Assembly: GCF_004634425.1 (NCBI RefSeq)
Contig: NZ_SBJL01000004.1
Span: 372,001-436,000 of the forward strand
DNA from: Vitreimonas flagellata
Lineage (GTDB): Bacteria > Pseudomonadota > Alphaproteobacteria > Caulobacterales > Aquidulcibacteraceae
Direction: 5' to 3'
Length of the DNA stretch: 64,000 bases
Made by a program: the position numbers and the translations under genes. Below are positions 47,791 to 62,820 of this stretch, piece by piece (the first letter of the stretch is position 1; every line of letters begins with the position of its first letter). The notes beneath the pieces are model-generated. The model saw only the letters and a list, made by a program, of their open reading frames with translations, was not told the DNA's origin and did not search any database.

Positions 47791-48666
47791 ATGGCCCGTT
47801 TCTGGATGTTGATTGCTGCGGTCTTGGCGCTTTCGGCGCCGGCTTATGCACAGCAGCAGCGCGATCCGTTCAACGGGCAGTTTGGCGTCATCGAGCTCGC
47901 GGCGCCGCCGGCGGAAGCCGCGCGTCTGGCCAAGCTCATGGGCGATTCCCTGAATGGCCTCGCGGCGCAGCGTCCGGGCCAGCTCGATGTGTACATGATC
48001 AGCGCCGGCTTCTGGAGCGACGCGGTCTTCGAGCGCGAGACGACGCAAGCGGCGGAAATTCTTGGCGCGCATTTCGGTGAAGCGGCGCAGGGGCGCTCCA
48101 TCGTCTTGAGCGCGGGCGGACAGGGCGCGCGCAATTATCCGGCCGCGACCCCGGACAATTTCTCCGCCGCGATCGGCCAGATCGGCGCGACCATTGATCC
48201 GAATGAAGATCTGGTCGTGTTGTTCCTGACGTCACATGGTTCGCCCGATGGTTCGATCGCGCTCCGCGAACACAATCGCCTTGGCGCCTCGATGCGACCG
48301 ACGCATTTGCGTGACATGCTCAACGCCGCCGGCATCCGGAATCGCGTGATAATCGTCTCGGCCTGCTTTAGCGGCGCGTTTATTGCGCCTTTGATGGACG
48401 ACAACACGATCATCCTTACTGCCGCGCAGCACGATCGGTCGTCATTTGGTTGTCAGCCGCAGCGTGATTGGACCTTCTTCGGCGACGCCTTGTTCAGCCA
48501 CAATCTGCGCAATGGCGAGTCGCTTCTCGAAGCGTTTGATCGCGCCAAGGTGCTGATTGAGCGTTGGGAGCGCGAGCAGCGTCTGACGCCAGCCTCGAAC
48601 CCGCAACGCCATGTCGGTGCGCGCGCTGCTGATATGCTGCGCCGCGCGGAACGCGCCGCGCGCTAA
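47791..48666 (+). CDS. Secreted C13-family (legumain-like) cysteine peptidase
   Basis: The 291-residue protein has a signal peptide (MARFWMLIAAVLALSAPAYA) and the caspase-fold catalytic dyad of family C13: His in LFLTSHGSPDGSI and Cys in IIVSACFSGAFI. RSSFGC follows in the substrate-binding region. It should act in the periplasm or outside the cell; clan CD enzymes usually cleave after a specific side chain. It overlaps the convergent Lrp gene by 4 bp. Confidence 0.88.
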   Translation: MARFWMLIAAVLALSAPAYAQQQRDPFNGQFGVIELAAPPAEAARLAKLMGDSLNGLAAQRPGQLDVYMISAGFWSDAVFERETTQAAEILGAHFGEAAQGRSIVLSAGGQGARNYPAATPDNFSAAIGQIGATIDPNEDLVVLFLTSHGSPDGSIALREHNRLGASMRPTHLRDMLNAAGIRNRVIIVSACFSGAFIAPLMDDNTIILTAAQHDRSSFGCQPQRDWTFFGDALFSHNLRNGESLLEAFDRAKVLIERWEREQRLTPASNPQRHVGARAADMLRRAERAAR

Positions 48667-50253: not shown

Positions 50254-50324
50254 GGCGAATTTCTGAGCGGCGGCCCGAGCAAGTGGACCATCGCGACTAG
50301 AAAACACCTCGTCCGGGCTTTCCA

Positions 50325-50340
50325 TGTGCGATATTTAACA
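50325..50340. promoter_or_regulatory. Crp/Fnr-type palindrome upstream of the transporter
   Basis: TGTGCGATATTTAACA has the TGTG-N8-ACA form. With flanks, 19 of 21 bases match the site at 55,111. It lies midway between two divergent genes, 72 bp before the MFS ATG. Confidence 0.6.
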
Positions 50341-50411
50341 TTGCGGTATGTTGAGGCCGTTCGAGGACCTCAAGGCTGGCGAGGGCGGCCGCAATCAAGT
50401 TTGGGCGGGGC

Positions 50412-51647
50412 ATGAATCACATCGAGGCGCAGGCTGGAGCAGGGCGGCTGCGGCAGATCGGGATACTTGTTGGGGCCACCTTGGGCTGGGGCGGCGGGGT
50501 CGCGATGTTTGTGCTGTTGGGCGGGCTCTTCATCGCGCCGCTTGAGGCGGCCTTTCTATGGCGACGCGGCGACATCGCGCTTTCGAGTTTTATTCTCTTG
50601 GGCATGGGATTGATGGCGCCGCTCATTGGCGTCGCGGCCGATCGGATCGGCGCTCATATTTTTGTGGGCGTAGGCGCAATCGGATTTGCCTGCGCTTATG
50701 TCGCCCTGGCTACCATGAACGGCGAGCTTTGGCGCTATCTCGCCATCCTTGGCTTTGTCGCCTTGATTGCAGCGCCAGCGACATCGCCGCTCATCTATTC
50801 CAGGGTCGTGGTGGCCCATTTCACCAAGACGCGAGGGCTTGCGCTGTCGATTTGCCTCAGCGGCTCGACGGCTTTGGCGGCTTTGATGCTGCCGCTTACC
50901 CAATACGTGATTGCGAGCTTTGGCTGGCGCGCGGGCTATTACATGCTTGCAGGACTTGCGTTGATGATCGGCGCCATCAGCTTTGTGCTCTTGCGCAAGG
51001 CCGCGCCGCCGCGCCAAACCGAAGCCTCCTCTGGCGCGTCGAAATGGGGCGCTCTAGCGCGCGCCTTGGGCGACGCCCGCTTTTGGTTGCTTGCGCTCTG
51101 CTTTGCATCGGGCGGGTGTGCGTTGGTGGGGGTAAGCGCGCACACGCAACCTTTCCTCACCGAGAGCGGCTTTGATCCCATGCGCGCCGCCTGGCTCGGC
51201 AGCCTGCTGGGCGTGGTGATGATCGTTGCGCGCGTGACGGTGGGAGCCTTGCTCGATGTCATGGAGCCGGGCTGGCTTGGGCTTACGGCGTTTCTGGCGG
51301 CTGTGTTGGGATGCCTTGGGTTGGCTTGGCCCCAAGCGCCAGCATTGGCGATCATCGTTGCGCTTGCGCTGATCGCTTGCGCGCAGAGTGCTGAAAGCGA
51401 CTTCCTTGGGTTTTTCACCGCACGCTATTTTGGCGTGGCGCATTTCGGCGTGATCTCAGGCGCGCTCAGTCTGATCTTTGCTGTGTTCGTGGCATTGGGC
51501 GGCGTTATTGCTGGGCGCATGCACGACACCTTTGGCGATTATCGCGCCTTCTTCTATCTCGCCGCGATCCTTTGTTCGCTGGCGGGCGTCGCGTTGTTTG
51601 CGAGCGCGCGACTTAAGGCGCCCGAGGTGCGCAACAGCGGCCAATAG
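50412..51647 (+). CDS. MFS transporter, probable exporter of the peptide operon
   Basis: The 411-residue protein has about twelve TM helices in two halves joined near residue 195-215 by a polar loop (RKAAPPRQTEASSGASKW). The MFS motif A variant GVAADRIGAHIFVG lies after TM2 and GRMHDTFGDY near TM11. The sequence style is closest to monocarboxylate/oxalate-type MFS proteins. As first gene of a run with an oxidase, a short peptide and an N-methyltransferase, it may export the product, though import of a precursor is equally possible. Confidence 0.85.
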   Translation: MNHIEAQAGAGRLRQIGILVGATLGWGGGVAMFVLLGGLFIAPLEAAFLWRRGDIALSSFILLGMGLMAPLIGVAADRIGAHIFVGVGAIGFACAYVALATMNGELWRYLAILGFVALIAAPATSPLIYSRVVVAHFTKTRGLALSICLSGSTALAALMLPLTQYVIASFGWRAGYYMLAGLALMIGAISFVLLRKAAPPRQTEASSGASKWGALARALGDARFWLLALCFASGGCALVGVSAHTQPFLTESGFDPMRAAWLGSLLGVVMIVARVTVGALLDVMEPGWLGLTAFLAAVLGCLGLAWPQAPALAIIVALALIACAQSAESDFLGFFTARYFGVAHFGVISGALSLIFAVFVALGGVIAGRMHDTFGDYRAFFYLAAILCSLAGVALFASARLKAPEVRNSGQ

Positions 51648-51741
51648 GGTGCGTCATCGCCCGCACTAATGCGAGTGTCGGCATGCATGTCTTGGCCGCA
51701 CACCTGATGCATTGGCGTCTTCTCTTCAACGGAGACACCTT

Positions 51742-53226
51742 ATGCGCGTCGATCGCAATCAATCCATCGCCATCATCGGCGCCGGCGTAAGCGGGCTCTA
51801 TCTCGCCTATCGTCTGCAAGAGGCGGGCTTTCAGAATGTGCGTGTGTTTGAGGCGCGCGCACGCGTCGGCGGGCGCATGCATGATCGTCAAATCGGTGTG
51901 CTCGGAGCCGAGGTCGCGTTGGGCGCGCTAAGTTTCAGCGACGCCCACCCACATGTCAGTGGGCTTTGCGCGCATTTGGGCTTGAAGCGCCATGAGCTCG
52001 CGTTCGTGCGCGCGGGCTTTGCCTTGCGCGGCGCACGTTCCGACGGCGCCGATCAGGCAGTTGTGCGTTCACGCTACGGTCTTGGGGACGAAGGCGCCGT
52101 CGGCGACGCCTATGCTCTTCTACTCACATTGGTCGGCGTGGTCGCGCCCGACTTTGCGCGATACTGGCGCGATGACGATGCGCTCCTCCGGTACCTGCAA
52201 AATTGTGTCGTCGATGGCCGTGCATTGTCGCAATGGGGCTTTTGGCCATTGGTTGCGGCCAAGCTTCCTCCAGAGGCTTGCGCCTTTGTGCGCGATTGCC
52301 TTGGGCTTCGCTCTTGTGTCGCCGCCACCCAAGCGGCGGGCGCGATTTTTACCTTGCTGTGGGAGATGCGACCCGGACAAACGCATTTTGCCTTGACGGG
52401 CGGGTTTTCAGCGCTTGGCGCACGTCTGTACGCTGAGACCGCGGCCGGCGATGTCTATCATTTTTCGAGCACGCTTGAGCGCGTCACGACGCACGGGACG
52501 GGCTTTCAACTGACGATCCGTCGTGATTGCGGGGCGCGCGAAGTGTTCGACGCCGAAATCGTCATCCTCACATGCCCGCCAGCTGCGCTGAAGGCGCTTG
52601 AGTTTGACGATCAAGTATTCGCCTCTCATGTGGCGTCGGCGTGCGCAGATGTCGCCGCCATCGAGGCAAGCAAGCTTGTTTTACTGTTTGAGCAGTCATC
52701 GCGTTCGGACGCAGGCGCGGCGCGGGTCATCCACACATTCTCTGCGGACGCGCCGCTCGCGCTGGTCTTGAGTGAAGCCAACCCATCGGGCGCACAATTA
52801 TTCACGATTTTTGCCGACGGGGAGAACGCGCACTTTTGGGCGAGCTTTGCGGGCGCCAGCGACGCCCCGGCCAGTCCAGAGGCGATCGTTGCAGCGCAGC
52901 GAGAGCTCGAGTGGGCTCTCGGCCAGAGGCTCGGCGCGCCTGTCGCCTCCTGGTGGATTGAGTGGTCGCGTAGAGGTGAAGGTGCTGCCTGGCACGCCTG
53001 GTCGGTCGGCGCCGACGCGGCGACGACGCGGGTGCGCATCATGCGTCCTGATCCCGATAAAGCGCTCTTCATTTGCGGCGAGGCGTTTGCGGCCCCGCAA
53101 GGCTGGGTGGAAGGCGCATTGAGTTCCGCCGAAATGGTTCTCGAACGGCATTTCGGCATGACGCGGCCGCATTGGCTGCGTGAACACACCACGTTCGAGA
53201 TTTCACGAGAAAGGAATATCTCATGA
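51742..53226 (+). CDS. Flavin amine-oxidase family protein
   Basis: The 494-residue flavoprotein starts with IAIIGAGVSGLYLAYRLQEAG and EARARVGGRMHDRQI (dinucleotide-binding and GG-doublet motifs of monoamine/L-amino-acid oxidases). It ends with LFICGEAFAAPQGWVEGALSSAEMV, the C-terminal FAD motif. ATG 51,742 follows GGAG at 7 bases. Its stop overlaps the ATG of the peptide gene (ATGA), so the two are coupled. It may oxidise an amine or side chain of the peptide product; the sequence alone cannot confirm that. Confidence 0.87.
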   Translation: MRVDRNQSIAIIGAGVSGLYLAYRLQEAGFQNVRVFEARARVGGRMHDRQIGVLGAEVALGALSFSDAHPHVSGLCAHLGLKRHELAFVRAGFALRGARSDGADQAVVRSRYGLGDEGAVGDAYALLLTLVGVVAPDFARYWRDDDALLRYLQNCVVDGRALSQWGFWPLVAAKLPPEACAFVRDCLGLRSCVAATQAAGAIFTLLWEMRPGQTHFALTGGFSALGARLYAETAAGDVYHFSSTLERVTTHGTGFQLTIRRDCGAREVFDAEIVILTCPPAALKALEFDDQVFASHVASACADVAAIEASKLVLLFEQSSRSDAGAARVIHTFSADAPLALVLSEANPSGAQLFTIFADGENAHFWASFAGASDAPASPEAIVAAQRELEWALGQRLGAPVASWWIEWSRRGEGAAWHAWSVGADAATTRVRIMRPDPDKALFICGEAFAAPQGWVEGALSSAEMVLERHFGMTRPHWLREHTTFEISRERNIS

Positions 53227-53393
53227 CAAGCCCCCACATCATGGCGATGGACCCGTTTGCGCGCGCCGCCCATTTGCGCCGAGTCGGTGCGGCGCGGCGC
53301 GTACGCTCTGCTGATGCGCTGCCAGCGCCTAAGATTGTGCACGCTGGCGCGCCTCAGCCGAAGATCGTGCACGCGCTGATCACGCACGTCTAA
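53223..53393 (+). CDS. Putative RiPP precursor peptide, borosin type
   Basis: A 56-residue peptide beginning MTSPHIMAMDPFARAAHLRRV. Its N-terminal part is basic and helical (FARAAHLRRVGAARRVRS). Its C-terminal part repeats PKIVHA twice (residues 36-41 and 46-51) and ends LITHV. AAAGGAA lies 7 bases before the ATG, which overlaps the oxidase stop. Two short hydrophobic repeats at the tail, directly before a borosin-like methyltransferase gene, fit a leader-core precursor whose core residues are N-methylated. There is no separate borosin-binding domain as in SonA, so recognition would rest on the short leader. Confidence 0.7.
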   Translation: MTSPHIMAMDPFARAAHLRRVGAARRVRSADALPAPKIVHAGAPQPKIVHALITHV

Positions 53394-53401
53394 AGCCCCT
53401 C

Positions 53402-53440
53402 GGCGTCGGCCCTCACTGGGTCGGCGCCGCCCCCTTTCTT
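53402..53440 (+). terminator. Hairpin between precursor and methyltransferase genes
   Basis: GGCGTCGGCCC (53,402-53,412) pairs with GGGTCGGCGCC (53,418-53,428) with one G-U and one C/A-type mismatch, followed by a C-run and TTTCTT. It may be an attenuator or RNA stabiliser that keeps the precursor mRNA more abundant than the enzyme mRNA. Confidence 0.5.
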
Positions 53441-53456
53441 CAATGAGGCAAACGGA

Positions 53457-54248
53457 ATGACGCAAGAAGGTTGTCTGATTATCGCGGGGCTTGGCCTGCA
53501 TCCGGGCCAATGCACGTTGGAAGCGCGCGCCGCGCTTATCGCTGCCGACATTGTATTCGTGCAAGCGGGCGAGGCTGACATGCTGGCTTGGGTGCGCGAG
53601 CTCAATGGCCGAACCCTCTCGCTTCAAGATTTCTATGCCGGTCGCGCCACACGGCTTGACGCTTATGCGGCCATGGCTGAGGCCATGCTGGCGCCGGTGC
53701 GGCGGGGCTTACGGGTTTGTGCGGCGTTTTACGGCCATCCCGGGGTGTTTGTGTCGCCCTCTCATATTGCGTGTGGACGCGCTGCTGAAGAGGGGCTCCT
53801 CGTGGTGATGTTGCCAGGCGTGTCGGCCGAAGATTGTCTCTTCGCTGATCTTGGCGTCGATCCAGGCCAGAGCGGGCTGCAATCTTACGAGGCGCGCGAC
53901 TTCTTCGTGCACGCGCGCCAGATCGACGCCACCGCGCCGCTCGTGCTTTGGCAACCCATTGTGGTCGATGAGGCGGCGCTGTCGGGTTTTAACTCTCGCC
54001 TTGGCGCCATCCGCGCCTTGGCGGCGGCCCTCATGGAGATCTATCCGCCAAGCCACGAAATTATACTTTATGAGGCGGCTGTGCGTATGGACGAGTCCGC
54101 GCGTATCGAGAAGCTTACGCTTGCGAATTTGGAGCGCGCCCAGTTTGCCCAAGAAACGACGCTCTATGTGCCGGCGCTGCGTGGTCCTGCATTGTCAACT
54201 TCCCGCGCCCGTTTGATGAAGCGCCTGCTCGCTGAGGACAATTGCTGA
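53457..54248 (+). CDS. Borosin-like peptide alpha-N-methyltransferase (tetrapyrrole-methylase fold)
   Basis: The 263-residue protein has the SAM-binding fold of tetrapyrrole methylases: CLIIAGLGLHPGQCTLEARAALIAADIVFV at the start, FYGHPGVFVSPSH (residues 91-103), and MLPGVSAEDCLFADLGVDPG (118-137). The last two, and the Tyr/Arg pattern FYAGRATRLDAY (residues 59-70), are hallmarks of the OphMA/SonM borosin enzymes that methylate backbone amide nitrogens. True tetrapyrrole methylases differ there, and no cobalamin or sirohaem gene is nearby. The enzyme lacks a fused precursor tail, so it would act in trans on the adjacent peptide. GAGG lies 8 bases before the ATG. Confidence 0.85.
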   Translation: MTQEGCLIIAGLGLHPGQCTLEARAALIAADIVFVQAGEADMLAWVRELNGRTLSLQDFYAGRATRLDAYAAMAEAMLAPVRRGLRVCAAFYGHPGVFVSPSHIACGRAAEEGLLVVMLPGVSAEDCLFADLGVDPGQSGLQSYEARDFFVHARQIDATAPLVLWQPIVVDEAALSGFNSRLGAIRALAAALMEIYPPSHEIILYEAAVRMDESARIEKLTLANLERAQFAQETTLYVPALRGPALSTSRARLMKRLLAEDNC

Positions 54249-54249
54249 C

Positions 54250-55047
54250 CTACGATCCGAACACTGCGCCAAGTTCGCGGGCGGCGAGAATGGCGCTCGC
54301 CAGATGCAATTCGGCTGCGTCCAATTCCATCATGCCACGCCACAGCGCGCGCATATCGTCTTCGCGATCGACAATGATGATGAGGCCATGGGTCCCAGCG
54401 GCAAGCACGGCGACGGGGTAGGGCTGGGCGCCGTCGCGCAGTCGCGTCAGCGCAGGCCGGGCGCCATCGCCTGAATTGAATGCACGATCCATACAATCGG
54501 CGATGCTTTGCGCGTCGCGGTCTTCAGCAAAGGTAAGACGCTCGCGATCGGACCACAGACTCAAGCGTCGGTCCAACAAGGTTCGTGCGCGCGCATTGGC
54601 CGATTTGATCTCCAGGTTACGGTCCACGAGCAGCGCCGCGAAGGGCAGCGCGTCCAACATCATGAACGGGTAGGTGAGCGCTGCGATCCGGTCGCGCTCC
54701 TGTTGCAGCGCGAGGGCGGCGAAGGGCGCGAGCGCGTCAAAAGCCGCAGAGCTTACGCGCGTTGACCAGGCGATGAGGAAGCTGCGCTCAAGCCCGCCAA
54801 GCGGGTGGAGACGGAGCTTGGGGTGCTGTTGCAGGGGGCCTGACATGGCGTCATGGAAAGCTTGGGCCAGCGCGTCAGCGCTTGGCCCCGCACAGGCGAT
54901 GCGCCATTGATCTTGCCCCTCAGTGTAGGCGATTGCCAAAGCCTCGGCCTGGATTGCGCAGCGGCAGGATTCCAGCGCCTCCAATACGTGTCGCACCGGC
55001 TTATCCTGGCGCAAGCTGAAGGGCGCATGGGTGACGAGGGCATTCAT
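54250..55047 (-). CDS. LuxR-like sensor protein lacking its DNA-binding domain
   Basis: The 265-residue protein has an N-terminal region of the helix-rich type seen in LuxR solo regulators and a PAS-like segment (LPFAALLVDRNLEIKSANARARTLLDRR, then RLTFAEDRDAQSIADCMDRAF). It ends MELDAAELHLASAILAARELGAVFGS, where the LuxR helix-turn-helix would begin (usually LTPAEARLA...). The HTH is cut after its first helix. The stop is one base from the end of the methyltransferase gene, so the tail may have been lost on rearrangement. It may bind a partner or ligand, or be a remnant. Confidence 0.7.
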   Translation of the reverse strand: MNALVTHAPFSLRQDKPVRHVLEALESCRCAIQAEALAIAYTEGQDQWRIACAGPSADALAQAFHDAMSGPLQQHPKLRLHPLGGLERSFLIAWSTRVSSAAFDALAPFAALALQQERDRIAALTYPFMMLDALPFAALLVDRNLEIKSANARARTLLDRRLSLWSDRERLTFAEDRDAQSIADCMDRAFNSGDGARPALTRLRDGAQPYPVAVLAAGTHGLIIIVDREDDMRALWRGMMELDAAELHLASAILAARELGAVFGS

Positions 55048-55110
55048 GAGCGTGCGCCTGCTTTGTCAAACACTGATCCAGTGTCTGGCGCAGGGCGCTC
55101 AGGCTCGCCA

Positions 55111-55126
55111 TGTGCGATATTACACA
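55111..55126. promoter_or_regulatory. Crp/Fnr-type palindrome upstream of the Crp gene
   Basis: TGTGCGATATTACACA is a TGTG/CACA inverted repeat in Crp style. It lies between the divergent sensor gene (64 bp) and the Crp/Fnr gene (48 bp), and nearly repeats the site at 50,325. Confidence 0.65.
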
Positions 55127-55173
55127 TTATAACCGACGCAATCTGCGACGTTCGCGACGAAGGGGTATGACGC

Positions 55174-55908
55174 GTGAGCCGGCGTGTGCGTTTCCAAGCG
55201 CAAGAGAGCGCGCGCCGGCTGGGTGCAATCGGCGTGTTTTCAGCGCTCGATGCCGACGCGATTGCGGTGATCGCCAGCGAGATTGTATGGAGCGCCTTCG
55301 AGCCTGGGGCGCAAATTCTTTCTCATCTCGACCAATCGCGAGAATTCTACATCTTGAGTGAAGGCGAGCTTGAGGCGCGGCTTGATAGCCCCATTGGGCG
55401 CGGCGTGCGTGTGCGGCGTTTGCAGGCTGGCGCGCATTTTGGCGAGTTGGCGCCGCTTACGGGCGCTCGGCGCAGCGTGACATTGGTGGCGACCGGCGAT
55501 GTTGTTGTCGGCGCGCTTGGCGAAACGATTTTCCAGCGCCTGCTGCAGACCCAAGCAGGGTTCGCCGCCGCCCTCGCTGTTGATCTGGCGCGCAGCGTCG
55601 TTCATCTCACCGAACGGGTCTATGAGTTGGCCGCGCTTGAAATGCGCTTTCGCCTTTATGGTCAATTGTTGCGTTTGGCGGTGCGCACCGGCCTGAATGC
55701 AGCAACTATTGCCCCGGCGCCCACCCACGCGGAGTTCGCCGAAATGATCGGGGCCCGACGCGAGGCTGTAACGCTTGAATTAAACTATCTTGAACGCGAG
55801 GGGGTGCTCCTGATCGAGCGCGCCGGCATTCTCATCGTCGACATGGCGCGTCTGACCGACATGTTCGCCAAGCGCGCGGGATCGTCGCCGCAGACCGGTT
55901 TTGAGTAA
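55174..55908 (+). CDS. Crp/Fnr-family transcriptional regulator
   Basis: The 244-residue protein has a cyclic-nucleotide-binding domain with the phosphate-binding-cassette-like FGELAPLTGARRSVTL (residues 89-104, including the Glu and Arg that hold cyclic nucleotides). A long dimer helix and a winged helix-turn-helix near residues 186-225 (THAEFAEMIGARREAVTLELNYLEREGVL) follow. It has no cysteine cluster for an iron-sulfur centre. It sits next to a palindrome and just before a cyclase-like protein (3 bp gap), so it may respond to a cyclic nucleotide and control itself and the transporter operon. Start is GTG. Confidence 0.9.
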   Translation: MSRRVRFQAQESARRLGAIGVFSALDADAIAVIASEIVWSAFEPGAQILSHLDQSREFYILSEGELEARLDSPIGRGVRVRRLQAGAHFGELAPLTGARRSVTLVATGDVVVGALGETIFQRLLQTQAGFAAALAVDLARSVVHLTERVYELAALEMRFRLYGQLLRLAVRTGLNAATIAPAPTHAEFAEMIGARREAVTLELNYLEREGVLLIERAGILIVDMARLTDMFAKRAGSSPQTGFE

Positions 55909-55911
55909 CCT

Positions 55912-58563
55912 GTGCAACGCGGATACCTCTTCTCCGACATCGACGGCAGCACGCAAAAATGGGAGCGCGCTGGATTTGCGATGCAGGCCGCCATGCGTCG
56001 CCACGACGCCATTTTTGCGGAATTGATCGCCGCCCATGGCGGGTTCATTCATGACCATGTCGGCGACAGCGTTTTCGCCATCTTCGAGACGGGAGATCCC
56101 CTAGCGTGCGCGCTCGATCTGCAACTGGCTTTCGCACGTGAAGCGTGGCCATTGACTGAAGGCTTGCGCGTGCGTGTGGGCGTGCATGCGAGCGCCTCGG
56201 CGACGTCAGAGGGGGCGGGGGCGATTGCCGAGCGCATCGCGGCCAATCGTGTGGCGCGTATCGCCGATTGCGCCGCGGGTGGTCAGATCGTGGCGAGTGT
56301 CGAAGCGGTGAGCGCCTATGGCGCGCCGGCGCACACGCGCTTCGTCGACCTCGGTGCGGTCTTGTTGAAGGGCGTGGAAGCGCCCGTGCAAATCTTTGGC
56401 CTTGATCACGAGGCTTTGCGGGGCGCTCCTTTCACGCGCGTGCGCCGCCAAGCGGCGGCGCACGCGAATTTGCCAAAACCCATGGCGCCATTGCTCGGGC
56501 GCGCGCAAGAATTGGCGCGATTAGCAGAACTTATCGCAGCGCCCGAGGGGGGGCGCATTATCAATGTGGTGGGACCAGCGGGCGTCGGCAAAACCCGTTT
56601 GGTGCAAGAAGCGGCCTATCAGTTCAGCCAGACCCAACCCGTCTTATATCTACCGCTTGCATCGCTGCACGACGGGGAAGATCTGATCGGGGCGCTCGCG
56701 CGTGCGCTGAATCTTCCAGCGTTAGGCGCCGCCTTGACCGCGGAGGCGATTAGCGAGGCCCTGCGGGTTCGGCCCCGACTTCTGGTGCTCGACAACGTTG
56801 AGCGCGCAAGCCCTGACGCCTTGACTGCGTTCGGCGAGTTCCTTGCGACGCACCGTCACGTCCATGCAGTTTGCGCCAGCCGCTGGCCCTTGGAAATTGC
56901 CCATACGCGCTTGCGTGTGAAAGGACTCGCCGCCCCTGGGCCGGGAAGGGAGGCGCTGGCCGAGAACGCCGCCTATGGCTTGTTCGCGCGCGAAGCCGCA
57001 CACGCCGGCGCAAGCCTTGAAGCTGACGACCGAACGGCGTCTTTGTTCGCCCGATTATGCGACGCGCTTGGCGGTCTGCCGTTGGCGCTGCAACTGAGCG
57101 CAGCGTGGTTGCGTTATTTGCCATTGGATGCGGTGGTGGAGCGCTTGGCGCAGCATCGGGGCGAATTTGGCTTTATCTTCGCAGACACTTGGGCGGCTCT
57201 GTCGCCTGATGTGCGCGACAAAATCGGCCGTCTCTCAATCTTTCGCACCGCTTTCTCCGCCGCGGCGGCCGCCGAAGTGGCGGGCGTCGAACTTGGCGAA
57301 TTGATCAAGTTTGAGGAAAGCGGATTGGTGGAGAGGGCGGCGGAGCGCTGTTTCATCTTGCATCCGCTCTTGGCTGAAATGGCCGAGGCGAAGACGGCGA
57401 ATTTCGATACCGCCCAAGCCCATGCGGAATATTTTCTCTCAGCGCCCATGCTGGCGCCGCGCCCGCGTGGGGAAGGACATGTGCCGATTGCAGAGGTGGA
57501 AGCAGCGTGGATGTTGGCGCGTCGCTTTTGGCCGGAGCCGAAATTGCAAGCGGCCGGCGAGCGACTCTTCTATTGGTGCGCCTTTGCAGGCCTCTTCAAA
57601 GAAGGCGCTTCATTGTTCGCGGCGCGAGACGCCGAGGGCGAATTGGGTTTCTACATATCCGCTTTGCGCGCCAATTGTTTGGTGCACGCCCATGAGGGAG
57701 AGGCCGCTCAAAAGCTGGCGGCCGCGGCGAGCGCCAGTTCTGACGCCTTGACGCGCGCACACGGATTGCATGCGCTGGGCAATCTAGCGCATGCGCGCGG
57801 CGATTTCGATGAAGCGGAAGAGTTTTACGCTGCGGCGCTGCCAATAAGGCGCGATCTTCATGATCGCATCGGCGCGCATTATACAATCATGTCTATGGCC
57901 GCGCTCGCTTTGGCGCGTGGGCATGCGGCCGCCGTCGGCCAAATCTTGGTGGACGCGCTTAATGATGCGCATGCCCACCCGGTCGCTATGATCCACACCC
58001 ACTTCTTTGCCGGCGAGGCCCTCTTGGCCCAAGGTCGCCATAAGCAAGCGGAGATCAACTTTCAGCGCGCGCTTGAACTCGACGCCTTGATTGAACATCC
58101 CGCATTCCGCACGCGTCTTTTGCTGCGTATGGGCGCCGTCGCCAATTTGGCCAGAGATCGGGCGCGTGCGCATGCCTTTTTCGATGAGGCGCAGCTTTTG
58201 GCTGGGACCCTGGGGGATCGGCGCGGCGGTTGCTATGCAGCTATTGAGCTTGCCCTTGCCGCCCACGTCGCCGGCGACAGTGCGCGTGCGAAAGCAGAAT
58301 TGTTGACGGCGGTGCGGGTGGCCTTGGAATTGCGCTCAAAGCCTTTGGTGGCGCGCGCATTGTTGGCGCTTTTGCAGGTTGAGATGGAAATTGGCGACGA
58401 TCAGGCGGCGGAGAGATTGCGCGAGGTTCTGGCTGGCGCGGACTTGGGCGAATTGAGCGCAAGGTTCGCGCAATTGACCAAGACGCCGCCACGCGCGGGC
58501 GACGATGGTCGGGGCGGTCAGGTGCTCTTGGAGGAAGGGGCCCGACGGGTGTTGCAGCTTTGA
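55912..58563 (+). CDS. Cyclase-like domain fused to STAND ATPase and TPR repeats
   Basis: The 883-residue protein starts with a class III nucleotidyl-cyclase domain (residues 1-165): FSDIDGSTQKWE with metal Asp 9, VGDSVFAIF with metal Asp 52, and ANRVARIADCAAGGQIV with Asn 112 and Arg 116. The purine-selecting Lys expected before GD is replaced by Asp 48, and GDG reads GDS, so activity or nucleotide choice is uncertain. A STAND ATPase follows with Walker A GPAGVGKT (221-228) and Walker B LLVLDNVE. About 300 residues of TPR-like repeats complete it (AHARGDFDEAEEFYAAALPIRRDL). Start is GTG. It is probably co-transcribed with the Crp gene. Confidence 0.85.
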   Translation: MQRGYLFSDIDGSTQKWERAGFAMQAAMRRHDAIFAELIAAHGGFIHDHVGDSVFAIFETGDPLACALDLQLAFAREAWPLTEGLRVRVGVHASASATSEGAGAIAERIAANRVARIADCAAGGQIVASVEAVSAYGAPAHTRFVDLGAVLLKGVEAPVQIFGLDHEALRGAPFTRVRRQAAAHANLPKPMAPLLGRAQELARLAELIAAPEGGRIINVVGPAGVGKTRLVQEAAYQFSQTQPVLYLPLASLHDGEDLIGALARALNLPALGAALTAEAISEALRVRPRLLVLDNVERASPDALTAFGEFLATHRHVHAVCASRWPLEIAHTRLRVKGLAAPGPGREALAENAAYGLFAREAAHAGASLEADDRTASLFARLCDALGGLPLALQLSAAWLRYLPLDAVVERLAQHRGEFGFIFADTWAALSPDVRDKIGRLSIFRTAFSAAAAAEVAGVELGELIKFEESGLVERAAERCFILHPLLAEMAEAKTANFDTAQAHAEYFLSAPMLAPRPRGEGHVPIAEVEAAWMLARRFWPEPKLQAAGERLFYWCAFAGLFKEGASLFAARDAEGELGFYISALRANCLVHAHEGEAAQKLAAAASASSDALTRAHGLHALGNLAHARGDFDEAEEFYAAALPIRRDLHDRIGAHYTIMSMAALALARGHAAAVGQILVDALNDAHAHPVAMIHTHFFAGEALLAQGRHKQAEINFQRALELDALIEHPAFRTRLLLRMGAVANLARDRARAHAFFDEAQLLAGTLGDRRGGCYAAIELALAAHVAGDSARAKAELLTAVRVALELRSKPLVARALLALLQVEMEIGDDQAAERLREVLAGADLGELSARFAQLTKTPPRAGDDGRGGQVLLEEGARRVLQL

Positions 58564-61394: not shown

Positions 61395-62279
61395 TTAAGC
61401 GCCGAGCGCGCGAGCCCAATCGTTCCAATCGCCAAAGCCGTCGGGGGCCAAAGCGATTTCGCACGCAATCGCGCCCGCCACGCGTTGCAGCACGCGTGCT
61501 GCAACGGCTTTACCGGCAGCGTCTCTGTCAGCCGCGATAATCAATCGGTCGATGACTGGCGGGGGTTCAAACTGGGCCAAATTCTCTGCGCTGAGGAAGG
61601 CCCATGCGCCGGCGGCGAGCGCGCGGCGCGCCGACAATGCGGTCTCTAGACCTTCGGCGATCACCAGCGTGTGGCCAGGCGCGTCAATGCGCACATAATG
61701 GCCCATCAGGCGCCCGATGGTCCGGCGCGGCGTCGCGACCGGCGCCTTGCCGGCGCCATGCGCCGTCAGCAGCGTGACTTGCACGCCTTGCAGCGCCCCG
61801 TCCGCATCGACGAGCGCGCTCATAAGCGCTGGTCGTCGAAGACGATCATCAAGGCTTGTCATACGCGGGTGAAAGCGCAGCACGTCAGGGCCGGGCAATT
61901 CGCCCTCGATGGCGCGGGCGCGCAGATAGCGCTCGGCCACCGTGCCGGCGATGGGCTGCGATTCAGCCCAAAGCCGGGTCACGCGCGCCATGCGCTCTTC
62001 GTCACGCGGCTCAGAATGGACGCGCACAATCTGTTCGGATGAATCTTCATGCTGATCGCGGTCTTCTTCAAGAAGACCAAGGTCGGCGAGTTCAGCTCGC
62101 ACGGCGCGCCAATCGTCACGCGGTGAGAAACAATGGATGAGCACGCGGCCATCTTCGGTCTCTAAGAGAGAGACAGAGCGATCCGCGGCCCCATGCCCAG
62201 GACCGCGGATCAGGGCTCGGCGTCCGCCGTCCATAAGCTGACCGCCCATGGCGTCGACGATGCGCTTAAGCCGCGACAT
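61395..62279 (-). CDS. Toprim-domain protein of a conjugative/integrative element
   Basis: The 294-residue protein has an N-terminal part with RGPGHGAADRSVSL and HCFSPRDDWRAVRAEL typical of element-borne primase-like proteins, and GTVAERYLRARAIEGELP. The Toprim core has the catalytic Glu in LVIAEGLETALSARRAL and the metal-binding DxD in LIIAADRDAAG. It probably takes part in element DNA replication or transfer. ATG 62,279 overlaps the end of the ArdC-like gene by 14 bp. Upstream in-frame codons have no similarity. Confidence 0.85.
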   Translation of the reverse strand: MSRLKRIVDAMGGQLMDGGRRALIRGPGHGAADRSVSLLETEDGRVLIHCFSPRDDWRAVRAELADLGLLEEDRDQHEDSSEQIVRVHSEPRDEERMARVTRLWAESQPIAGTVAERYLRARAIEGELPGPDVLRFHPRMTSLDDRLRRPALMSALVDADGALQGVQVTLLTAHGAGKAPVATPRRTIGRLMGHYVRIDAPGHTLVIAEGLETALSARRALAAGAWAFLSAENLAQFEPPPVIDRLIIAADRDAAGKAVAARVLQRVAGAIACEIALAPDGFGDWNDWARALGA

Positions 62280-62820
62280 GGATTTCCTCCGGCGCGGGGC
62301 TTTTGTCCACCAGCCAATCGAGGGCGTTCTGCGCTTGCGCTGCAGCAAACAAAAACGCGCGTTTGTCGTGCTCGAGCACTTTCATCCAGCTTTCAATATA
62401 GGCGGAATGATCTGCGATGTGACCGGGCGGCATGCCTAAATGCGCGCCCAGAATGGCTGCGCCGATTTCGGCGATCAATTCCTCGACGACGTAAGCTGCA
62501 CGATCAAAGCGCTTGGAGAGATCGCGGCCGACACGGTGGGGAGCGGCGGTGGCGTGCACGCATTCATGGTTCAAGGTCGCAGCGTAGGCGTCCAAGGAAT
62601 CGAAGGCGGCGATCGGCGGCATGGCGATCATGTCGCGGCTTGGGATGTAGCAGGCGATGTCGCGCGAGAGGGTGCGCTCGATGTCCAGACGCTGAAACCA
62701 GGCCTCATGCGCGCCGGCAGCCGAGGCGGCGTCGAAGATTGGTGCGGGATGAAAGTGCGAGGGCAGTCCCTCGATCTGGTTGGCGTTGAAGACAATGTAG
62801 GATTTGAGGAAGCGCGCCAT
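62266..62820 (-). CDS. ArdC-like zincin metallopeptidase domain, N-terminus missing
   Basis: The 184-residue product starts MARFLKSYIVFNANQIEGLP, a segment that lies in the middle of typical ArdC anti-restriction proteins. It continues through the zincin motif LNHECVHATAAPHR (HExxH-type with Cys) and the third ligand region VVEELIAEIGAAIL. The usual ~110-residue N-terminal ssDNA-binding domain is absent and no matching sequence is found upstream, so the gene was probably cut at about 62,830. It may still fold as a protease domain. Confidence 0.75.
   Translation of the reverse strand: MARFLKSYIVFNANQIEGLPSHFHPAPIFDAASAAGAHEAWFQRLDIERTLSRDIACYIPSRDMIAMPPIAAFDSLDAYAATLNHECVHATAAPHRVGRDLSKRFDRAAYVVEELIAEIGAAILGAHLGMPPGHIADHSAYIESWMKVLEHDKRAFLFAAAQAQNALDWLVDKSPAPEEIHVAA

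Follow-up and report, generated by a model that had tools for sequence, protein, structure and literature searches.

A candidate two-unit split-borosin gene cluster with an L-amino acid oxidase-family enzyme and a precursor without a detectable binding domain in Vitreimonas flagellata

The region analysed here is a 64,000-nucleotide stretch of Vitreimonas flagellata DNA (contig NZ_SBJL01000004.1, positions 372,001 to 436,000; called the window below, with positions counted from its first base), in which four genes on the plus strand, at 50412-54248, encode in this order a major facilitator superfamily (MFS) transporter, a flavin oxidase, a 56-residue peptide and a methyltransferase (Table 1). 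An original prediction had read these as a split-borosin cluster, that is, one in which the enzyme methylating peptide backbone nitrogens and its precursor peptide are separate proteins, and its description of the locus is accurate with regard to the orientation and order of the four genes, the separate open reading frames (ORFs) of precursor and enzyme, and the ATGA coupling of the oxidase and peptide genes (51742-53226 overlaps 53223-53393). The oxidase is counted from the ATG at 51742, its open frame also containing an earlier TTG at 51712. The genome itself (G000; G numbers denote genomes and L numbers sampled loci) is 3.9 Mb long and 99.97% complete, and a search with the methyltransferase gives a single match in it at E up to 0.001.

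Table 1. Features of the putative cluster and its operator-like sites, in window positions
Feature	Position	Strand	Evidence or remark
Operator-like site TGTG-N8-AACA (CCATGTGCGATATTTAACATT)	50322..50342	+	upstream of the MFS-oxidase-peptide-methyltransferase unit
MFS transporter (MFS_1), presumed exporter	50412..51647	+	Pfam E 2.3e-27
FAD amine oxidase, L-amino-acid-oxidase family	51742..53226	+	Pfam Amino_oxidase E 5.8e-29
56-residue precursor (putative)	53223..53393	+	leader helix ~11-30 (predicted), core with two PKIVHA repeats
Borosin-family alpha-N-methyltransferase	53457..54248	+	SonM E 2e-49, OphMA E 2e-40
PAS-like protein	54250..55047	-	Pfam PAS_4 E 9e-4, under Pfam cut-off
Second operator-like site TGTG-N8-CACA (CCATGTGCGATATTACACATT)	55108..55128	+	upstream of CRP-like gene
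CRP/FNR-like regulator (cNMP_binding + HTH_Crp_2)	55174..55908	+	Pfam
Cyclase-like domain + AAA/NB-ARC-like ATPase + TPR protein	55912..58563	+	Pfam; Guanylate_cyc E 3.8e-4, under cut-off

The methyltransferase is a member of the borosin family, as had been proposed: its closest matches in the Protein Data Bank (PDB) are SonM, dbOphM (E 3e-44) and OphMA, and the motifs on which the proposal was based, FYGHPGVFVSP among them, are present in the translation. The Tyr/Arg pattern is likewise recovered when the enzyme is aligned with SonM. Among the residues tied to catalysis and closure in the SonM study are Y58, R67, Y71, Y93, F99, E146, W166, Q167 and E173 (PMC8429565), and their equivalents in the window enzyme are Y60, R66, Y70, Y92, F98, E145, W165, Q166 and E172, with SonM R68 and Q178 not kept. 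The enzyme therefore carries the catalytic residues matching SonM Y58, R67 and Y71 (and Y93) by which borosin alpha-N-methyltransferases are recognised and, being encoded apart from the precursor, belongs with the split borosins. From this we infer backbone alpha-N-methylation of the peptide core.

Related methyltransferases were found in 11 of 60 genomes searched at family level, in 12 of 398 at order level (one of them, G095, outside the genus) and in 3 of 385 at class level, the host's own genome included; nine records of a plasmid collection held distant ones. The loci sampled were 80 of the 130 confirmed in the scan of genome contigs, together with 12 from the family search. When the frames of at least 100 residues in the fetched loci were searched with a profile, the oxidase was found in 18 loci, their duplicates and L104 only, the 18 comprising 12 from the window's genus, five from Wenzhouxiangella and one from a gammaproteobacterial metagenome-assembled genome (MAG). 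In all 18 a small precursor ORF directly follows the oxidase, while in six (L016, L019, L021, L096, L097 and L099) precursor and methyltransferase are separated by a cyclase-like gene. Within the genus, the 11 of 30 genomes with an oxidase match (E up to 1e-25) are the same 11 that carry the methyltransferase (Fisher p 1.8e-8, uncorrected for kinship), and in one genus relative (L096:12144-13949, on G054:C158) oxidase, binding domain and core share one open frame, constituting an oxidase-precursor fusion. The comparison of genome neighbourhoods that the original prediction had suggested as a check thus shows the oxidase-precursor-methyltransferase set to be conserved, and by this linkage the oxidase is part of the borosin system. 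The locus of G095 (L100, 16.5 kb) gave no match to either the oxidase or the binding domain.

A quick tree was built from 88 methyltransferases (86 loci, the window and SonM), leaving out L001-L012 and L094, whose genes are covered by longer or duplicate loci (L001 is the window and L094 lies within L100), and L093, which is not a methyltransferase locus. All 18 oxidase-adjacent methyltransferases fall on one side of a branch with a Shimodaira-Hasegawa-like approximate likelihood ratio (SH-aLRT) value of 79, and none of 500 label shuffles gave as low a result, a tree compatible with a single origin of the oxidase-linked group.

The 56-residue peptide looks like a real gene under purifying selection, because non-synonymous divergence from its counterpart in L013 (dN ~0.30) is well below synonymous divergence (dS ~1.0). 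L013 is a 70%-identical relative of the window, from a MAG, with the same short peptide type; 51 codons were compared, five with gaps or frame breaks being skipped (dN/dS ~0.3), and the differences by codon position are 13/11/26, i.e., 26 of 50 in the third. PKIVHA occurs twice in the window peptide, at residues 36-41 and 46-51, and L013 also has two repeats, the second spanning a frame break. AlphaFold2, run on the single sequence, predicts one helix at residues 11-30 and leaves the remainder unstructured (predicted local distance difference test score, pLDDT, 74.5). A longer precursor was considered and rejected, because only 13 codons of open frame precede the ATG after the last stop, none of them ATG, GTG or TTG.

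The peptide differs from most relatives in the domain that it lacks. Small ORFs next to eight of the methyltransferases were used to build a profile over four rounds. It matches 67 of 93 sources (the window plus 92 loci, with duplicates counted), L095-L099 also being matched, and since an alignment of 14 such precursors finds SonA in the PDB with E 8.5e-16 (dbOphM and OphMA weakly, E 0.001-0.005), the profiled domain is, judged by this similarity, the borosin binding domain (BBD). The 26 sources without it comprise four of the window type (L001, L002, L013 and the window), six short loci whose longer versions carry a BBD, and 16 others. In the oxidase-linked group a SonA-like BBD is found in the precursors of 16 of the 18 loci, the exceptions being the window and L013, the only two of the group with the short BBD-less form. 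Against this profile the score of the window peptide is at the level of chance (E 61 for 1621 sequences, 0.1 bits), the 64-kb window gives no match at E 0.01, the best match in the whole genome is partial (E 0.33, 28 of 66 profile positions), and no BBD was found on the C-terminus of the window oxidase, where L096 has one. No five-helix BBD of the SonA type (type IV) is accordingly detectable in peptide, window or genome, and the arrangement corresponds to class 4 as given in a figure legend of Xu 2024, a separate core protein in a cluster without a BBD (PMC11395268).

This loss is probably derived, because the window and L013 nest among BBD-bearing oxidase loci. The core points the same way: PK[IV][IV] is common to the window peptide and the BBD precursors of L014, L022, L095 (L003) and L098 (L010), which are of PPKII type, and in the stretch checked among oxidase-linked BBD precursors it occurs in six of 15 rows (four distinct loci) and elsewhere in none of 60 rows; of 20000 shuffles of the peptide, 17 contain P.?PK[IV][IV]. 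On account of this common core, a BBD-core precursor is the probable ancestor of the peptide, the BBD having been lost or strongly reduced and the core duplicated. A rival view, which we take seriously although we hold it to be the less probable one, is that the leader is a minimal BBD remnant, a single helix lying in the same groove, so that recognition would not be new in kind. The predicted helix fits such a remnant, and the best-matching stretch of the peptide, MDPFARAAHL, aligns to positions 11-20 of the BBD profile, but this match is no better than the chance-level score given above.

Among the 16 other BBD-less sources, L024, L033, L057 and L069 have downstream ORFs of 82-89 residues. 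A second BBD-less set, also within these 16, consists of 48-residue peptides downstream of methyltransferases (L088:7046-7192, L089:7020-7166 and L092:5669-5815), two of which have tails of the kind KIIVVVVI and KVVIVLVL; their methyltransferases form their own branch of the tree and have a C-terminal extension. Borosin methyltransferases with BBD ORFs also occur in contigs titled as Thermoplasmata archaeon MAGs (L031, L038 and L043), and myxococcal BBD precursors (L075:5018-5998 and L077:5018-5998) have long repeated cores of the VVYAAG or MVYGA type. In L101, L102 and L103 (G571, G666) alphaproteobacterial methyltransferase matches lie within frames of 564-1016 residues, which, with BBD matches in those sources (the strongest with E 1.6e-7), suggests fused borosins.

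The oxidase has the fold and the flavin adenine dinucleotide (FAD) motifs of L-amino acid oxidases (LAAOs), its profile matching 8jhe in the PDB (E 5.7e-105) and its AlphaFold2 model (pLDDT 84) having 7og2, 8jt7 and 8jhe as best Foldseek matches, with template-modelling scores of 0.84-0.85 by query length; K311 is the invariant Lys. At the Arg position of the GGMR motif, F, S or H stands in all 18 borosin-linked oxidases (Ser in the window), against R in the three solved LAAOs aligned. We take the GGMR Arg of 8jhe, 8jt7 and 7eih to be the same motif as Arg90 of snake LAAOs. That Arg90 is described as holding the substrate carboxylate (PMC7052187). With this carboxylate-anchoring Arg missing and the oxidase tied to a peptide gene, the evidence suggests a peptide amine, and not a free amino acid, as its substrate. 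Candidate reactions may include N-terminal deamination, Lys oxidation and oxidation at an N-methyl group; the Lys of PKI may be a target, though Lys is not present in every oxidase-linked core. The second modification that the original prediction had held possible is therefore plausible and gains indirect support from the precursor-linked oxidase, while its chemistry stays predicted.

A borosin could also be made by these genes with the oxidase sparing the peptide and oxidising a free amino acid or amine (to yield peroxide, for example) or recycling released N-methyl amino acids. The closest solved relatives are indeed free-amino-acid oxidases, and the invariant K311 and FAD motifs fit an active enzyme of that type; yet the replaced Arg in every linked oxidase, the position of the gene next to the precursor even in the six loci where a cyclase-like gene parts precursor from methyltransferase, and the in-frame fusion in L096 all speak for a peptide substrate, and we regard this alternative as rather unlikely.

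The cluster probably extends beyond the four-gene run and is drawn here as 50322-58563, with the CRP-like and cyclase-like/AAA/TPR genes included, because a pair of operator-like sites precedes both gene units and because a cyclase-like homologue accompanies the loci of the genus. When up to two mismatches are allowed, CCATGTGCGATATTNNACATT has two occurrences in the 3.9-Mb genome, at 50322 and 55108, with no match for the backwards control; at up to three mismatches the chance expectation in the window is 0.01. The first site ends 70 bases before the MFS gene and the second 46 bases before the CRP-like gene, and L013 has counterparts of both before the same genes, with three mismatches each. 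TGTG-N8-CACA is presumably a CRP/FNR-type site. Given its cNMP-binding and HTH domains (Pfam) and the paired palindromic-type site before both units, to which binding is predicted, we infer that the CRP-like protein is the candidate reader of both sites. It is 67% identical in L013 and has homologues in five of the 12 methyltransferase loci of the genus (window, L013, L095, L098 and L099), while a cyclase-like/AAA/TPR homologue is present in the fetched flanks of 11 of the 12, the window included, L014 having none within 6 kb. A clear MFS homologue was found among the fetched loci in L013 only, split over frames there (weak matches in L076 and L086), and the PAS-like protein has 40% identity in L013 and weak tblastn matches in L098 and L104. 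Counts of promoters and terminators were close to shuffled means.

Building on protein families, active-site conservation, co-conservation, absence of the BBD, core similarity and site uniqueness, all read from sequence, we consider it likely that the locus is a two-unit split-borosin cluster whose peptide would be methylated, oxidised by the LAAO-family enzyme and exported, under CRP-like control. The 56-residue peptide would be the precursor, and the methyltransferase would methylate backbone amides of hydrophobic residues in both PKIVHA repeats, the predicted sites lying around I38/V39 and I48/V49 and perhaps in the ALI tail. Because there is no detectable BBD in the window lineage, recognition of the peptide by the enzyme would depend on the short leader helix (residues 11-30), on the repeated core or on both. 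The oxidase would act on the peptide, an amine of either the leader-cleaved or the unprocessed form being the most likely site, the MFS protein would export the product, and the CRP-like regulator with its cyclase-like/ATPase/TPR partner would control both units via the TGTG-N8-CACA-type site.

Several points weigh against this scheme. Its methylation, oxidation and product are predicted from the genes; the substrate of the oxidase is deduced from one missing residue; no leader peptidase was recognised within the cluster; and the cyclase-like and PAS matches lie under Pfam cut-offs. The SH-aLRT value of the branch uniting the oxidase loci falls below the program's mark of 80, the L096 fusion is known from one MAG and is possibly an assembly error, and the short precursor is common to one relative only, a MAG in which its gene has two single-base frame breaks. 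Finally, the window and L013 methyltransferases share a long branch (0.69) and deviate where at least 85% of the 19 other aligned sequences agree. Examples are T12L, which lies in the GTG loop, a G-to-D change at top-clamp position 171, and M or A in place of P at 211 (the L013 row of that alignment starts at residue 15, its GLG being taken from its DNA). With such changes on a long branch, the activity could have shifted, and the altered positions could reflect a new binding mode or drift.

The same branch and altered positions, with the failure to find a BBD in peptide, window or genome and the frame breaks in the L013 copy, would also be expected if the short peptide were a precursor in decay, with the lineage's methyltransferase now acting on another substrate or losing its function. 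We consider this improbable, as the peptide has a dN/dS of ~0.3, the duplicated core is present in both genomes, the key methyltransferase residues are kept, and operator-like sites and gene order are common to the window and L013; the frame breaks point to sequencing error, since the L013 MFS gene is broken as well. That the enzyme is an ordinary tetrapyrrole methylase next to an unrelated small ORF is scarcely credible, for although Pfam places it in the broad tetrapyrrole methylase family PF00590 (63.8 bits), the NCBIfam precorrin methylase models, whose cut-offs are 163-391, reach only 13-17 bits and the best NCBIfam model, YabN, 48.5 against 525, as opposed to E 2e-49 for SonM and the conserved key residues.

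Of the known systems, the type IV split borosin SonM-SonA of Shewanella oneidensis (PMC8429565) is alike in its separate methyltransferase (263 residues in both) and precursor, its key Tyr/Arg residues and its C-terminal core. Unlike it, the window peptide has no detectable five-helix BBD and a duplicated core, and an LAAO-family oxidase together with MFS and CRP/cyclase-like genes adjoins the pair. The fused fungal borosins OphMA and dbOphMA have a homologous methyltransferase domain with the precursor fused to it, which is split off in the window. L-amino acid oxidases (7og2, the arginine oxidase 8jt7 and HTAncLAAO2, 8jhe) share the fold, FAD motifs and Lys with the window enzyme, but their carboxylate Arg is kept in none of the 18 borosin-linked members aligned. 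The architecture of class 4 borosins is alike as the legend of Xu 2024 describes it (PMC11395268); that legend mentions no oxidase, and the window locus is placed among oxidase-bearing relatives in which the BBD is retained.

As a class, split borosins without a BBD are therefore already known, having been listed in the Xu 2024 legend (PMC11395268). The expectation of an unusual subtype stands insofar as the folded binding domain is missing, and falls insofar as it appealed to a far shorter precursor, given 56 residues against the 71-residue PDB chain of SonA. Potentially new are the group of oxidase-linked loci, in which the Arg is missing and one fusion occurs, the disappearance of the BBD within that group, and the paired operator with the CRP/cyclase-like unit. 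No paper dedicated to a flavin amine oxidase with borosins turned up in searches of open-licence papers, a scope outside which the main split-borosin papers lie; texts naming both "borosin" and "oxidase" exist. More broadly, it is conceivable, though we put it forward tentatively, that these loci form an "oxidative borosin" lineage in which an LAAO-derived enzyme modifies a backbone-methylated peptide, the oxidase-precursor fusion being its extreme and one branch having swapped the BBD for a short helix and a duplicated core.

Further observations concern the surroundings of these clusters. G048, which already has one such set, has a second oxidase-BBD-cyclase-like set on a 6.3-kb contig (L104, G048:C136), on which no methyltransferase match was found and where a TGTG-N8-CACA sequence precedes a CRP-like gene. 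Signalling genes beside oxidase-borosin clusters include one for a 7TM-GGDEF protein in Wenzhouxiangella (L023:2401-4206) and, in two genus relatives, genes for TIR or TIR-LuxR proteins (L014:2510-3955; L022:2508-4043); GGDEF domains are among the borosin architectures named by Xu 2024 (PMC11395268). In the window, a gene 1.7 kb upstream of the cluster (47791-48666) encodes a legumain-like peptidase of family C13 whose start resembles a signal peptide; it was rejected as a leader peptidase, there being no sign of linkage and no Asn in the peptide. The minus strand at 61395-62820 encodes a DUF7146/Toprim protein and a zincin-like metallopeptidase, a pairing typical of mobile elements.

Peptides become more drug-like when their backbone is N-methylated, and borosin enzymes are wanted as tools. 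If the proposed scheme is true, a precursor functional without the 53-residue binding domain would offer a small substrate, and a peptide amine oxidase tied to borosins would add a further tailoring step. Both questions, that of recognition and that of the oxidase, are directly testable, because close BBD-bearing relatives exist for swaps of enzyme and peptide. The shedding of the BBD in favour of a helix and a duplicated core would, if confirmed, constitute a natural experiment in how an enzyme acting on ribosomally synthesised and post-translationally modified peptides changes its recognition of its substrate.

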